Positions 19,741 through 27,658 are shown, counted from the first letter of the stretch. The stretch is DNA of 64,000 nucleotides from Pseudomonas lopnurensis (GCF_015070855.1 NZ_JADDIX010000092.1:45675-109674); one strand, 5' to 3'. Notes: generated by a model not told the origin, from the letters alone. Numbers and translations: made by a program.

Positions 19741-19912
19741 TCAGCATTCGATGATCACGATGTGGTCGGTCAGCGGATCCTTCTTGCTGCAGCAAGGCCA
19801 GCGAACCCGTTTCGTGCCGTGCGCTCTAGCGCGCAGCTTTTTCGGATACTTTTCATTGAAATGGACCTGCTGGTAATGTCACGTCGTTAACCAAACAAAA
19901 TGGAAGAACTTG

Positions 19913-20710
19913 ATGGCCGGCGAGGACTGGGCAGTACGAGCGCCACAAACTAAGCTGGAGCGTATGGAGGCGTACTTTAGTGGTTTTGGTTTTGAGCCTC
20001 ACCGGCACGACACCTATGCTGTCGGTCGCACCCTCGCAGGAGTCCATAGCTTCCGCTATCGAGACGGCATGAAACATAGCCTTCCGGGCGGGACGATCGT
20101 AATCCACCCTGACGAATTGCACGACGGCGAAGCTGGAAGCATCGACGGCTTTCACTATCGGATTCTCTACATCGAACCCGCTCTCTTGCAGAAAGCTCTT
20201 GGTGGAACGACGTTACCGTTTGTACCAGACGGAATTTCACGAGATCCGCGCCTCTACGCAGCTACGCAGACGTTAATGCAAGAAATGGACTGCGTAATCG
20301 AGCCGCTTGAGGAAGAAGACGCCATCTACGATCTTGCGCAGGCCCTTGCCGCAGTTTCGGGGATAAGAAAGCGCCGTCGGACTTTAAATTACACGGCTGC
20401 CGAGCGTGCTCGTGAATTCATTCACAGCGCATTGGATTCAACCATATCGCTTGATCAGCTCGAAGCGGCCAGTGGTCGGGATCGCTGGAGTCTTTCCCGC
20501 GATTTCAGGGCGCTTTATGGAACGAGTCCTTACCGGTATCTAACGATGCGGCGTTTAGACCAAGTCAGACGACAGCTACTGGCGGGGCAGCCATTGATCG
20601 ATGCTGCGTTGAGCCTTGGCTTTGCCGATCAGAGTCACATGACCCGCCATTTTAAGAAAGCGTACGGAATCTCTCCAGCGCGGTGGCTCGAAATGCTACG
20701 CCGTTGTTGA
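19913..20710 (+). CDS. cupin-type AraC transcriptional regulator (island)
   Basis: A 265-residue regulator. The N-terminal cupin sensor (PHRHDTYAVGRTLAGVHSFR, then HSLPGGTIVIHPDELHDG) is the form often found beside LysE- or AzlCD-type amino acid exporters. The C-terminal AraC domain has helix-turn-helix units at SLDQLEAASGRDRWSLSRDF and ALSLGFADQSHMTRHF. ATG 19913 has GGAAG 7 bases upstream; TTG 19910 is an alternative. It is 206 bases upstream of the precursor peptide gene, in the same direction, and is the likely local activator, perhaps sensing an amino acid or the pathway product. Confidence 0.9.
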   Translation: MAGEDWAVRAPQTKLERMEAYFSGFGFEPHRHDTYAVGRTLAGVHSFRYRDGMKHSLPGGTIVIHPDELHDGEAGSIDGFHYRILYIEPALLQKALGGTTLPFVPDGISRDPRLYAATQTLMQEMDCVIEPLEEEDAIYDLAQALAAVSGIRKRRRTLNYTAAERAREFIHSALDSTISLDQLEAASGRDRWSLSRDFRALYGTSPYRYLTMRRLDQVRRQLLAGQPLIDAALSLGFADQSHMTRHFKKAYGISPARWLEMLRRC

Positions 20711-20741
20711 GCGTCGATGCTGTCCAAAGCTGCACGATCGT

Positions 20742-20760
20742 TCAAGACCCTCAAATACCC
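20742..20760 (+). promoter_or_regulatory. candidate AraC operator: tandem TCAA-ACCC repeats
   Basis: TCAAGACCC (20742-20750) is directly followed by TCAAATACCC (20751-20760), about 155 bases before the peptide gene. AraC proteins bind direct repeats of roughly this size and spacing. No clear -35/-10 pair could be fixed nearby. This is a suggestion based on position and repetition only. Confidence 0.3.
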
Positions 20761-20916
20761 TCTCTCTAGACTGCGTTCTCGCAGCGCGTACTGGTAAAGC
20801 ATCGCCGCTGCGGCTCTAGGTCGGGTGCTTCGTTCGGCCTGGAGCATGGTCACTCACGGAGTATCTGATGGGGCTCGCGAATCTATCGGCCCTGAAGACA
20901 AAGAGAGGAAATCTGA

Positions 20917-21081
20917 ATGAGCAAAAACCATATCTCGTTGGTCGGCGGAACGCTTGGCGGTACCGTCGGAGGCACGGTAGGTGGCACGGTGGGCGGGACA
21001 GTTGGCGGAACGGTCGGTGGTACGGTAGGCGGCACATTTGCCGTAGGCGGGATGCAGTTGAGCAAGCGACTGACGAAGTGA
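20917..21081 (+). CDS. GGTV-repeat peptide, putative RiPP precursor
   Basis: A 54-residue peptide. A short leader (MSKNHISLV) is followed by eight tetrads, GGTL, six GGTV and GGTF (residues 10-41), then AVGGMQLSKRLTK. AGAGAGGAA lies about 7 bases before the ATG. It has no Cys, Trp or Tyr, and only one Phe. The tetrads are encoded by different synonymous codons (all four Gly and all four Val codons occur), so the repeat is conserved as protein and is not a recent DNA expansion. Its place 73 bases before a radical SAM/SPASM gene and upstream of an oxygenase suggests it is the modified substrate. The 4-residue Gly spacing also forms a GxxxG glycine zipper, so a membrane-active peptide is an alternative. 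Too short for many gene callers. Confidence 0.78.
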   Translation: MSKNHISLVGGTLGGTVGGTVGGTVGGTVGGTVGGTVGGTFAVGGMQLSKRLTK

Positions 21082-21154
21082 CCGCCATGGCGGCGCTGAT
21101 TCTAGCGTCGCCATTCCAGACCTATGGTCATCGCGCCTATGGAGAGAGTGCAAG

Positions 21155-22652
21155 TTGAACCTGCCCGATACCGAATCTTATGTTCTTTCAGCCGATGTAG
21201 TTCAAAACGAAATTGGTGACCGCTTCGCGACCTATCATCGCCTCCTGGGGGGATTGTTCTTTCTGGATCGCTACGGCCAAGAGCTATTAGAAGCGTACCG
21301 CACGCCGAAGCCTGTCCGTACCGCGCTTCTTTCCGGCGAAGCTCGAACAAGGGAGGAAGAGTTGACCCAGCAGCTTATTGCCCGGCATATCCTCGTGCCG
21401 GTTCGCGTTCGGCAGTCACGTAGTGAGCCCGCGTCGCTGGAAAAAAAGGTCAACATTATTCAGCTGATTCTCGCGAATGCCTGCAACTTCGGCTGTACCT
21501 ATTGCTTTGAAGGCGTTCAGGGCAAGAAAATGTCCGCGGAAGATGAGTACAACAAAGTTGATACGTCGCGGCTGATCGCCCGTGAAGGGATTAAGGTGAA
21601 CATCGAGGACTCCATTTATGCCTCGAAAGAACGCTTTGACCATCAGTACGACTCAAAGAATCGGTCGATGAAGCCAGCCGATGGTATCGCTTATGTCGAG
21701 TCCGCTCTTGCTGTGGCTCGTTCCGAAGGCGTTCGAGAAGTTATGCTTCAGTTCTTCGGGGGTGAACCGCTGCTCAACTGGCGCACAATTCACGCTGTTC
21801 TTGAGCGTTTTGGAAACGGCGAAAGCGAAGGCGTCAAGATCAATTATTCGACCGTTACAAACGGCTCCCTCATCACCGAAGAGGTGGCGGAAGCGTTTGC
21901 GAAGTATCAGGTTGCCGTCTGCGTCAGCTTTGATTCGCCGACGAGCCCCAGTAGACCTCTCAAAAACGGTGATGACAGCACGCCCGTAGTGATGCAGGGC
22001 CTTCGGACACTTCAGAGGTTTGAGAACCGAGTGGCTATCAATGCTGCGCTAACCTCTGCAACTTGGGATGACTTCAATAACTCAATTGTAGACCTCGCCG
22101 TTGATGTCGGGGCACAAGAAATCGGGGTCGTAGTCGATTTTGACCCTACGTTTTATTCAAATTATGGAGCACAACGTATTGTCGACCGCCTCTGGAAAGT
22201 CGTTGAGTACGGCAGGACGCGTGGGGTGGTATTGACCGGTTATTGGCATCAGATTTTTCAAGTCATGTTGGGTTTCGATTAGCGTCTCTTATCGAGGATT
22301 CAAGAATTGCTCTGCGAAAGGCGCGCAGTTCAGTATTGAGCCGAATGGCTCTGTATTCGCCTGTAAAGCTGGGTCGACTCTGCTGGGCGACATCCGGGAT
22401 GGCACCAAAATCTTGGATTCGCAACCGTACTTGAAGCACGCCGAACTTCGCAGAGATAACCCAGCTTTTTGCCACGGATGTGAAATAGAAGGTTTCTGTG
22501 GCGGGTTATGTTTGGGACCTTTGGAGAAGAAGTTCGCATCATTTAATGCGGTCGAGCCATCTGCCTGTGACTTTTACCGAGGTATTACTCGAAAACACAT
22601 CGGCTCACTTCAGTCCTACGAGATTGCCACCTTTGATCTTCAGTCGGCTTGA
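21155..22652 (+). pseudogene. radical SAM/SPASM peptide-modifying enzyme, single apparent frameshift
   Basis: The first frame (21155-22282, 375 codons) starts at TTG with GGAGAG about 8 bases upstream. Residues 8-82 resemble a PqqD-like peptide-recognition (RRE) domain. The radical SAM cluster motif is C110-N-F-G-C114-T-Y-C117, followed by FFGGEPLLNW. The frame stops at a TAG (22280-22282). One base further on, the 0-phase frame continues SVSYRGFKNCSAKGAQFSIE, then FCHGCEIEGFCGGLCLG and ACDFYRG, a Cys-rich SPASM-type domain for auxiliary iron-sulfur clusters, ending at 22652. An extra base near 22281 explains the break. Intact length would be about 499 residues. It is predicted to modify the GGTV peptide. 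Either a decayed gene or a sequence error. Confidence 0.82.
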
Positions 22653-22662
22653 GAGAAGAAAT

Positions 22663-23399
22663 ATGAATAACATTATGGCTAGACTCGGTGCGGTTACTTC
22701 AACTGATAGCAAATTTGTAGAAAGCGGTTTTTGTGTTATTGATATGCCGGTCATGCCTGCATCCTTTCAATCCTCGTTTGCAAACTTGCCGCGCGACAGC
22801 CATAGCCCCAGTCGACTTCGACAGATTCGGCTCTCTCAATACATGGGTTCTGGGATGAGGATGCGTGGGTGTTCGCATTATTGCCTCAGCGGAAGTATAT
22901 TCAGTCGGCCCGATACATAAAGTTGGCGGAGGCAGGAGGGGTGCCAAGGCATCGTGAACAGCTCGAAGTGAATCCGGCGCCTCTCATTGCTTGTGTTCTC
23001 GATGCACTGCCTATCAACCGGAAAGACAAGTTACAGGTAAATGTTAATCAGATCCGGGTCGTGGCGAACAAACTTTTCCGTGGCGTGACCGTGCCTGAAG
23101 GCCCACATAGGGATGGCCATGAGTACAGCGTAATTGCTGTGGCGCACCGAGCGAATGTCAAAGGGGGCGAGACACAGGTCATCGATCCGGTCTCAAACAA
23201 GGTCGTATTCAGGCAGACACTGAATGAGAATGAGGCCATCGTCATCGACGATGAGCGATATATTCACTATGCAACTAATATTGAGCCCGCCGAAGGTGAA
23301 GCTGGATTCCGCGATATTTGGGTTATTGAAATCAACCGTTGGGAGAATCGCGCCTACGGACGGGCTCATGAAAGATTGGCAATGTCGGCTGATGAGTGA
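22663..23399 (+). pseudogene. 2OG-Fe(II) dioxygenase (PF10014/BsmA-IDO type), single apparent frameshift
   Basis: The N-terminal frame from ATG 22663 (GAGAGAAGAA upstream) encodes ARLGAVTSTDSKFVESGFCV to LSQYMGS. A missing base near 22853 then shifts to the frame WDEDAWVFALLPQRKY, ending at 23399. The catalytic core shows H-R-D-G (HRDGHEYSV), RANVKGGETQ and DDERYIHYATNI, the iron and 2-oxoglutarate pattern of the family that includes Bacillus L-isoleucine 4-hydroxylase and BsmA. Members hydroxylate free aliphatic amino acids. It starts 11 bases after the radical SAM gene and ends immediately before azlC (TGA then ATG), so it is part of the operon. It may hydroxylate Val/Thr in the peptide or a released residue. 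Like the radical SAM gene it is broken once. Confidence 0.8.
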
Positions 23400-24140
23400 A
23401 TGAGATACGTTCTGCGTGTGTTTAACAGGCCAGCCAGTTCGCAAGAGGCAGGAACAGGCGTTGCCGTGCTCCGCCGGGTGGTTCCAACAGCGCTGGCCAT
23501 CGTTCCGGTAAGCATGCTGTTTGGTGTGCTTGCCGCACGGGGTGACTGGACTGTTCTTGAAGTGCTTGCTGTTGGTCTGCTGGGGTTCTCCGGAAGCGGC
23601 CAGTTTGCACTTTTGCCGCTAGCTGAGGCCAACACTGGGTTTCTTACGATGCTGCTGGTAACCGCGTCTATAAACAGCCGATACCTTCCAATTGCCTACG
23701 CGTCAGCGAGGCGCCTCCCGACGACAATCACTAAACGGGCGTTTACCGCGCATATGTTGGGTGACGAAGCCTATGCAACAGAGCAGGAGTCGGACAGTTG
23801 GCGAACGGTACTTTTTATACGAGCGGTAATCTTCGCCACTTGGGTGGGTTCTGGGGTAGTCGGAGCTCTGCTTGGACAGTTCATTCCGTCTGATTGGATC
23901 AGTGAAGGCGTTAATCTCGGCTTTCCTGCAAGCGTTGTGCTCATGTATCTGTCTGTAAGTCAGCTACGGTCCAGATTGTGGCTACCACGGAGCGACTCGC
24001 GTGATCGCTCCGGTTTGCTTGGTGTCGCCGGGCTGTGTGCGGGCGCTGCGTTGCTTTTGATCAACCTGGTAGGTCCGCTTTACTTTTGGATACCAGGTAT
24101 ATTGATTGCAACGGTACTCTTAGGGCGTGCAAAAATATGA
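23400..24140 (+). CDS. azlC: AzlC family branched-chain amino acid exporter, large subunit
   Basis: A 246-residue membrane protein with the AzlC pattern: an early amphipathic stretch, VPVSMLFGVLAARGDW, FSGSGQFALLPL and SINSRYLPIAYASA. AzlC with AzlD exports branched-chain amino acids and analogues (4-azaleucine resistance in Bacillus, YgaZH valine export in E. coli). It begins one base after the oxygenase stop, and its own stop overlaps the azlD start. The coupling to a hydroxylase suggests export of a modified amino acid or small peptide product, but this is inference. Confidence 0.9.
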   Translation: MRYVLRVFNRPASSQEAGTGVAVLRRVVPTALAIVPVSMLFGVLAARGDWTVLEVLAVGLLGFSGSGQFALLPLAEANTGFLTMLLVTASINSRYLPIAYASARRLPTTITKRAFTAHMLGDEAYATEQESDSWRTVLFIRAVIFATWVGSGVVGALLGQFIPSDWISEGVNLGFPASVVLMYLSVSQLRSRLWLPRSDSRDRSGLLGVAGLCAGAALLLINLVGPLYFWIPGILIATVLLGRAKI

Positions 24141-24439
24141 ACCCTTCGACGATCATTGCTATTGCAGCATTATTTGTTACAAGTTTCCTTGTACGTATCC
24201 TTCCTGTTTTTGTCACGTTTCAGTTCGGCGGTGCGAGCCAGCGCTATCTTGAGCGCGTACTCCCGGCTGCGGTATTTATAAACTTTGCCGTTTATATCGT
24301 GTATACGGAGACCCTGCGAGAACCTACGGCTGCTCTGGTTTCACTTGGCGTAGTTGCTATCATTGCCGCGCTGGGCTTATTTGGACTGATTGCCGTCGTA
24401 GGAATCGGGACTATTATTTATTTTGCGCTGGTGGCTTGA
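24137..24439 (+). CDS. azlD: AzlD family exporter subunit
   Basis: A 100-residue protein with three to four hydrophobic segments, of the AzlD/YgaH size and pattern (SFLVRILPVFVTFQFGGASQ, RVLPAAVFINFAVY). The ATG overlaps the azlC stop as ATGA, so the two subunits are translationally coupled. The longer open frame from 24035 is inside azlC and not used. It is the last recognisable gene of the island. Confidence 0.88.
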   Translation: MNPSTIIAIAALFVTSFLVRILPVFVTFQFGGASQRYLERVLPAAVFINFAVYIVYTETLREPTAALVSLGVVAIIAALGLFGLIAVVGIGTIIYFALVA

Positions 24440-26716: not shown

Positions 26717-27658
26717 ATGCACGCCGACGCGCTCGCCACCCTGCAACAGCACCTGCTTCGCGGCCTCGACCCAGCTCCCGACGAGACGCGGCGGCTGTTC
26801 CATGGCCGCGGCCGCTGCTATCCGGGGCTCGAACAGCTGACGGTGGACTGGCTGCAGGGGGTGGTGCTGGCGGCGCTGTTTCGTGATCCCGGCGAGGCGG
26901 AACTGGCGGCGCTGAAGCAGATGCTCATGGAACTGACTGCCACCCCGACCTGGCAAGAGAGCCAGGCACAGCGGCTATTGCTGCAGCATCGCTATCTGCC
27001 GGATGCGCCGACCGAAGCGCTGCTGGGGGACGTGCCGGGCGAATGGACCATCAGTGAAAACGGCCTGAACTACTGGCTGGACCTGGGCCGCAAGCAGAAC
27101 AACGGCCTGTTCCTCGACATGCGCTACGGCCGCCGTTGGGTGCAGGAACATGCATGCGGCAAGCGGGTGCTCAACCTGTTCGCCTACACCTGCGGCTTCT
27201 CGGTGGTGGCGCTTGCCGGCGGTGCCGAGCAGGTGGTCAATCTGGACATGGCCAGTGCGGCATTGACTCGTGGGCGCGAGAACCATCGGCTCAACCAGCA
27301 CGATCTCGGCCGGGTGAGCTTTCTCGGCCATGAACTGTTCAAGTCCTGGGGCAAGGTGACCAAGCTCGGCCCCTACGACCTGATCGTCATCGACCCGCCA
27401 TCCTTCCAGAAGGGCAGCTTCGCGCTGAGCCGCGATTATCGGAAGATCCTGCGCCGCCTGCCGGAATTGTTGACGGCGGGGGGCAGCGTGCTGGCCTGCG
27501 TCAACGATCCGGACGTCGGCCCGGACTTCCTGGTCGAGGGCATGGCCGCCGAGGCGCCGCAACTGCGCTTCGAGCGGCGCCTGGAGAATCCCCCGGAGTT
27601 TCCCGACGTGAACCCCGACAGCGGTTTGAAGGCGCTGGTGTTCGTCCGCGTGGATTGA
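26717..27658 (+). CDS. class I SAM-dependent methyltransferase, rRNA m5C/RlmI-like (PF10672)
   Basis: A 313-residue enzyme. The SAM-binding motif I is VLNLFAYTCGFSV, motif II region VVNLDMASAAL, and motif IV IVIDPPSFQKG, which is the layout of RlmI/RlmK-type 23S rRNA methyltransferases and their YgiQ-neighbour paralogues. The N-terminal 100 residues differ from the PUA domain of RlmI, so this is the smaller paralogue family common in pseudomonads. It ends 8 bases before the converging DUF305 gene. RNA target not determined. Confidence 0.86.
   Translation: MHADALATLQQHLLRGLDPAPDETRRLFHGRGRCYPGLEQLTVDWLQGVVLAALFRDPGEAELAALKQMLMELTATPTWQESQAQRLLLQHRYLPDAPTEALLGDVPGEWTISENGLNYWLDLGRKQNNGLFLDMRYGRRWVQEHACGKRVLNLFAYTCGFSVVALAGGAEQVVNLDMASAALTRGRENHRLNQHDLGRVSFLGHELFKSWGKVTKLGPYDLIVIDPPSFQKGSFALSRDYRKILRRLPELLTAGGSVLACVNDPDVGPDFLVEGMAAEAPQLRFERRLENPPEFPDVNPDSGLKALVFVRVD

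Follow-up and report, generated by a model that had tools for sequence, protein, structure and literature searches.

Described systems and the window locus

The closest described system is the tvg cluster of Halomonas anticariensis DSM 16096, tvgABCDE, reported by Kostenko et al. in 2022 (PMC9062424). It encodes TvgA, a peptide with TVGG repeats, the radical S-adenosylmethionine (SAM) enzyme TvgB, the dioxygenase TvgC, and two putative transporters, TvgD and TvgE. The TvgB enzyme of this species was reconstituted and joins the two γ-carbons of Val to give cyclopropylglycine, as established by tandem mass spectrometry (MS/MS) and nuclear magnetic resonance (NMR). What the pathway finally makes, and what tvgC, tvgD and tvgE do in it, were left to later work, with the expectation that TvgC acts on the peptide and that TvgD and TvgE hydrolyse and export it (PMC9062424). 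The Hil/IDO operons (IDO, isoleucine dioxygenase) resemble tvg in combining a PF10014 hydroxylase with an exporter and sometimes an amino-acid ligase, a PALP gene and HilA, but unlike tvg they start from free isoleucine, with neither a peptide nor a radical SAM enzyme (PMC3684760). The gvg cluster of Pseudomonas, which makes 4-formylaminooxyvinylglycine (FVG), also yields a non-protein amino acid and holds small open reading frames (ORFs) as well as LysE exporters; its core enzymes are unrelated to those of tvg (PMC8064604). Here we compare these systems with a locus of six plus-strand genes (19910-24439) in a 64,000-nucleotide stretch of Pseudomonas lopnurensis (NZ_JADDIX010000092.1:45675-109674), hereafter the window. 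An earlier reading of this DNA, the original prediction, had taken the locus for an unrecognised peptide-modifying cluster.

Our best overall explanation, which we hold with good confidence, is that the locus is a horizontally acquired tvg cluster (tvgABCDE and an araC regulator gene), a member of the family by descent whose two enzyme genes have recently been inactivated, and that working copies would convert Val residues of the peptide to cyclopropylglycine and, in the end, give an oxidised, exported antimetabolite. Locus L028 comes from the type strain Litchfieldella (Halomonas) anticariensis FP35, which is DSM 16096, and has the same gene order as the window. Both contain, in order, a TVGG/GGTV peptide, a radical SAM enzyme, a 2-oxoglutarate (2OG) oxygenase and two membrane proteins, with an AraC gene upstream. 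The window proteins are 79% and 91% (TvgB, over two parts), 54% and 79% (TvgC, over two parts), 66% (TvgD), 58% (TvgE) and 75% (AraC) identical to those of L028. Given the same gene content and order, and identities of 54-91% to tvgABCDE, the window cluster is the known system, and the statement that it is not a described pathway no longer holds (PMC9062424). The window copy differs in having 8 tetrads, against 12 in L. anticariensis, and in frameshifts in tvgB and tvgC.

The identification came from a structure search that led to TigE (8VPO), and from there to the cyclopropylglycine paper. Literature searches on GGTV peptides, on AzlC with SPASM and on multi-core radical SAM peptides returned nothing relevant. 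NCBIfam holds no model for TvgB, every match being far below cut-off, so a search by family name alone would leave the enzyme unrecognised. The features of the locus are as follows.

19910..20710, plus strand: AraC-family regulator with a cupin-type sensor domain, intact (PF02311, E 3e-23; PF12833, E 1e-21)
20917..21081, plus strand: tvgA, 54-residue precursor, intact; the same peptide occurs in every relative with an intact tvgB, and its repeat is the TVGG repeat of TvgA (PMC9062424)
21155..22652, plus strand: tvgB, radical SAM/SPASM cyclopropylglycine synthase, disrupted by a frameshift (PF04055, E 1e-11; SPASM PF13186, E 8e-6, in the other frame)
22279..22282, plus strand: lesion 1, one extra T, GATTAGC where relatives have GATAGC or GACAGC, with a TAG stop at 22280-22282
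22663..23399, plus strand: tvgC, PF10014 Fe(II)/2OG oxygenase, disrupted by a frameshift (PF10014, E 9.5e-28, on the downstream part)
22845..22847, plus strand: lesion 2, ATGGGTTC where relatives have ATGGGGTTC, one G having been lost from the run
23400..24140, plus strand: tvgD (azlC), branched-chain amino-acid exporter subunit, intact (PF03591, E 1.9e-24, above cut-off)
24137..24439, plus strand: tvgE (azlD), exporter subunit, intact (PF05437, E 0.003, under the gathering cut-off, but in place and conserved)

ORFs and Pfam matches bear out the predicted gene order, including the cupin-AraC regulator and, apart from the low AzlD score, the azlC-azlD pair. The spacings given for the genes after the peptide (73, 10, 0 and -4, the last being the azlC/azlD overlap) are also correct. 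The radical SAM core, the SPASM region and the PF10014 domain are indeed present, but not in open frames, as the original prediction had read across both lesions. The G+C content of the cluster block is 0.49-0.56, against about 0.68 in both flanks, and the block thus looks acquired. Scans for promoters and terminators gave counts close to the shuffled expectation. The regulator is 98.5% identical in amino acids to its counterpart in the same-genus genome G037, with a ratio of nonsynonymous to synonymous substitution rates (dN/dS) of 0.015. The AraC gene has blastn matches on plasmids; one from Klebsiella holds no related cluster, and the record of one from Cupriavidus is unannotated.

Precursor peptide and radical SAM enzyme

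The window TvgA comprises MSKNHISLV, one GGTL, six GGTV and one GGTF unit, followed by AVGGMQLSKRLTK, which confirms the 54-residue peptide with eight GGTx tetrads. Genomes and genome contigs were both searched for relatives of the radical SAM gene. A GGTV-repeat peptide with 4 to 12 repeats lies just upstream of TvgB in all 21 distinct proteobacterial loci examined, namely 18 intact loci from the genome-contig search plus G035, G037 and the window (full-length TvgB, frameshifted in the window). These loci span Pseudomonadaceae, Halomonadaceae, Marinobacter, Oleiphilus, Burkholderiales, one member of the Neisseriaceae and one alphaproteobacterium. The proposed link between peptide and radical SAM enzyme therefore survives a check for relatives lacking the peptide. 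In the actinomycete relative from Actinocrinis (L044), the repeats are GGTI/AGTI, with Ile replacing Val. The pairing of peptide and TvgB across the 21 loci, together with this actinomycete version, is new here.

Among 398 genomes of the phylum, the repeat pattern occurs only in the two that hold the cluster, and the reversed-pattern control occurs in none (0/398). The GGTx repeat is not due to chance. Its units vary almost exclusively at synonymous sites: in the window each pair differs on average at 2.86 third codon positions, 0.46 first positions and no second position, and within 22 loci (841 unit pairs) we counted 2149 third-position differences against 193 at first and 68 at second positions. 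Selection thus acts on the protein repeat and not on the DNA repeat. The stretch N-terminal to the repeats is variable, with only about five residues in Rhizorhapis, and the C-terminus keeps the motif LxxxL[ST]K.

Across 20 relatives, the TvgB radical SAM cysteines C110, C114 and C117 (CX3CX2C) and the SPASM cysteines C385, C403, C439, C442, C448 and C471 are invariant (numbering of L026). In the tree, the window TvgB forms a supported group with proteins of Stutzerimonas and Serpens, and the L028 enzyme falls in the same region. The closest solved relative in structure and sequence is TigE (8VPO), which we take to be the radical SAM cyclopropyl synthase of Paramaledivibacter. TigE is the top structural match (E 1e-36, about 31% identity) of an AlphaFold model built for the Serpens enzyme (mean predicted local distance difference test score, pLDDT, 76), and the TvgB family profile matches the 8VPO chain at E 5e-123. 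The two share the same radical SAM/SPASM layout; the TigE system presumably differs from tvg in precursor repeat and host phylum. In the model, residues 1-82, a candidate PqqD-like winged helix, are predicted to form strands followed by three helices (pLDDT about 87). The 8VPO entry appears in a list of RRE structures (PMC12710340). The predicted RRE-like N-terminal domain of TvgB probably reads the conserved C-terminal tail of the peptide.

In intact relatives, TvgB would act as a three-cluster radical SAM enzyme that binds TvgA, probably through the RRE-like domain and the C-terminal tail, and joins the two γ-carbons of Val in the GGTV repeats. By homology, the same conversion of Val to cyclopropylglycine, a loss of 2 Da per Val, is expected for TvgB in the Stutzerimonas relatives. 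The view of a peptide-modifying radical SAM system that has the repeat peptide as its substrate and alters Val is supported by the activity of the orthologous enzyme on Val, though its proposed crosslink between residues is not, as the published product is an intra-residue cyclopropane (PMC9062424). The TvgB proteins of Pseudomonas chlororaphis 14D6 and P. morbosilactucae (L030 and L042) are identical, which suggests a very recent transfer.

Frameshifts in tvgB and tvgC

The window tvgB ORF stops at 22282 after 375 codons, ahead of all the SPASM cysteines, and the remainder lies in another frame, so that the radical SAM and SPASM cysteines are split over two frames. The tvgC ORF leaves its frame near 22845, upstream of the HxD...H iron site. 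Both genes are intact in the same-genus genomes G035 and G037, and comparison with these places a one-base insertion and a one-base deletion in the window. The predicted cut-off products are a TvgB without any SPASM cysteine and a TvgC without its iron site, and no active form of either enzyme is expected in this strain. A survey of about 43 alignable window genes against G037 relatives found genuine frame breaks only in tvgB and tvgC; one more gene (1250-1824) was flagged, but its query ranges overlap and the break there looks spurious. Both lesions thus fall within adjacent genes of one pathway, in 2.2 of the roughly 38 kb compared. Between the window and G037, dN/dS is 0.06-0.08 for tvgB and 0.1-0.2 for tvgC; these low values indicate that selection held until recently and that the break is recent.

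Five tvg loci were found in Stutzerimonas, two of them intact (G035 and G037) and three decayed (the window, G024 and G047). G024 has lost the peptide repeats, most of tvgB and all of tvgC, and in G047 the peptide and tvgB are gone, with only the end of tvgC left. All three decayed loci, each with different lesions, retain AraC, AzlC and AzlD at full length. This is suggestive, though not proof, of exporter and regulator being kept after the loss of biosynthesis, a retention that would follow if AzlCD protects against a product made by neighbours. In the window, AraC and AzlCD would still sense and export, and may persist as a remnant of self-protection. The genus offers a natural contrast between intact strains and strains that are dead for biosynthesis but intact for export. 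The two decayed Stutzerimonas loci other than the window, at L096:5276-7420 and L025:6702-9183, have their biosynthetic genes deleted and AraC and AzlCD intact.

Oxygenase and neighbouring genes in relatives

The PF10014 iron site of TvgC (H145, D147, H198) is invariant in 17 relatives. The closest solved structures are HrmJ and BelL (PDB 9dq0 and 8jms, 34% identity), followed by IDO. HrmJ and BelL, of the hormaomycin and belactosin pathways, have the same PF10014 fold and presumably make the cyclopropane on free nitronorleucine, whereas in tvg the radical SAM enzyme has put the ring in place before TvgC comes in. The known PF10014 enzymes are hydroxylases of free Leu, Ile and Thr; their operons also hold exporters, amino-acid ligases and PALP genes, and have been proposed to produce antimetabolites (PMC3684760). 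A link to the gvg cluster, considered for its small ORFs, was rejected, as no radical SAM enzyme is mentioned for it (PMC8064604).

The Massilia and Pseudoduganella clusters (L036:10306-12808 and L039:10345-12859) contain a TauD oxygenase, a second threonine deaminase and the start of a non-ribosomal peptide synthetase (NRPS) in place of AzlCD. The cluster deaminase is 67-69% identical to the housekeeping copy, which lies elsewhere in both genomes. Its regulatory part (60%) has diverged further than its catalytic part (73%), which is not so when the two housekeeping copies are compared with each other. In Rhizorhapis (L043:8941-9888), a WelO5/HilA-like non-heme iron enzyme stands next to tvgC, where AzlCD would be. 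The cluster of Pseudomonas sp. URMO17WK12:I2 (L035:1-9094) includes a TauD oxygenase, a carbamoyltransferase and a LysE exporter; 342-nucleotide inverted repeats (99%) flank it at the two ends of the contig and a transposase-like fragment lies close by, so that the whole is probably a composite transposon. The Actinocrinis locus (L044:1796-9464) carries two radical SAM genes, the GGTI/AGTI peptide, two ATP-grasp genes of amino-acid-ligase type and a major facilitator superfamily (MFS) exporter, and is likely a methyl-cyclopropylglycine variant.

End product and alternative explanations

We propose tentatively that tvg clusters use the ribosome to produce a cyclopropyl amino-acid antimetabolite in free form, for example a hydroxylated cyclopropylglycine that mimics Val, Ile or Thr. 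The poly-cyclopropylglycine peptide would be a store of 4-12 copies, digested by ordinary cell peptidases; TvgC would oxidise the released cyclopropylglycine, or the peptide, and TvgDE (AzlCD) would export the product, a branched-chain or threonine-like antimetabolite. A feedback-altered second threonine deaminase would confer self-resistance in some hosts, and regulator and exporter would be left as an immunity relic, as in the window. The downstream oxidation, cutting and amino-acid-type export of the original prediction would fit this scheme. A branched-chain amino-acid antimetabolite in free form would agree with the genes that accompany tvg in relatives, namely a second threonine deaminase, amino-acid ligases, an NRPS and extra hydroxylases. 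The same neighbours are consistent with an amino acid that would be released from the peptide, modified further and exported, and from which some hosts would shield threonine deaminase. This comparative evidence, which points to a free branched-chain or threonine-like cyclopropyl amino acid as the candidate end product, is the part worth keeping, the window itself being a dead copy of a described pathway.

Several points weigh against our explanation. The clusters of relatives contain no conserved peptidase gene, so the cutting step rests on housekeeping enzymes. AzlCD is absent from the Massilia, Pseudoduganella and Rhizorhapis clusters; its retention after the loss of tvgB could be chance, with three loci, or reflect general amino-acid export; and both lesions could be sequencing errors. 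The expectation of the discoverers also differs from a free amino acid. The final product would then be a modified or short peptide, with TvgC oxidising the poly-cyclopropylglycine peptide and TvgD and TvgE hydrolysing and exporting it, a possibility that we regard as somewhat doubtful. It was put forward with the original cluster (PMC9062424), and a multi-core precursor would be in keeping with the GG spacing and the number of repeats; however, TvgD and TvgE belong to the AzlC/AzlD type of membrane exporter and show no peptidase domain in Pfam, characterised PF10014 relatives work on free amino acids (PMC3684760), and neighbours such as ligase, NRPS and IlvA genes are consistent with a free amino acid. 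Other chemistry for the radical SAM enzyme, such as a crosslink between Val and Thr, would be generic for SPASM peptide maturases but is highly improbable, as the reconstituted orthologue forms cyclopropylglycine inside single Val residues (PMC9062424).

It is unlikely that AraC-AzlCD is a general branched-chain amino-acid export module, captured by tvg, kept for its own use and uninformative on the product. About half of the Stutzerimonas genomes do have some AzlC homologue, mostly 54-64% identical to the tvg AzlC, and the three clusters without AzlCD point the same way. Against this, AzlC adjoins tvgC in 15 of the 18 loci of the genome-contig search, in Stutzerimonas both azlC and azlD abut or overlap the gene before them, and the five tvg-type Stutzerimonas AzlC proteins (71-88% identity to that of the window) stand apart from the others. 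We consider it quite improbable that the window cluster is functional, its frameshifts being sequencing or assembly errors or programmed. The lesions are single-base indels, one of them in a short G run, and dN/dS has been low up to now; but both hit adjacent pathway genes while some 40 other genes show no genuine break, and two other Stutzerimonas loci have decayed through different lesions. Programmed frameshifting was rejected because the two shifts are opposite in direction and no relative requires one.

Related loci

A different AzlCD pair lies beside a methyltransferase-like gene in G039 (L097:5891-8028). The same methyltransferase-like gene is found in the window at 26717-27658, about 2.3 kb downstream of the tvg cluster, and the window genome has a single AzlC match at E 1e-20. 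The tvg block may thus have replaced a native AzlCD at this position.

A second radical SAM clade, with about 30% identity and a weaker match to TigE, occurs in Streptomyces and relatives (L020, L046-L066). Beside it lies a small conserved peptide of another type, which resembles SSRPCAFVSPDKGNAPTITP in L020, L047 and L048, and its other neighbours include carbamoyltransferases, a PhyH oxygenase, an FAD enzyme, a GDSL-like protein and an MFS exporter.

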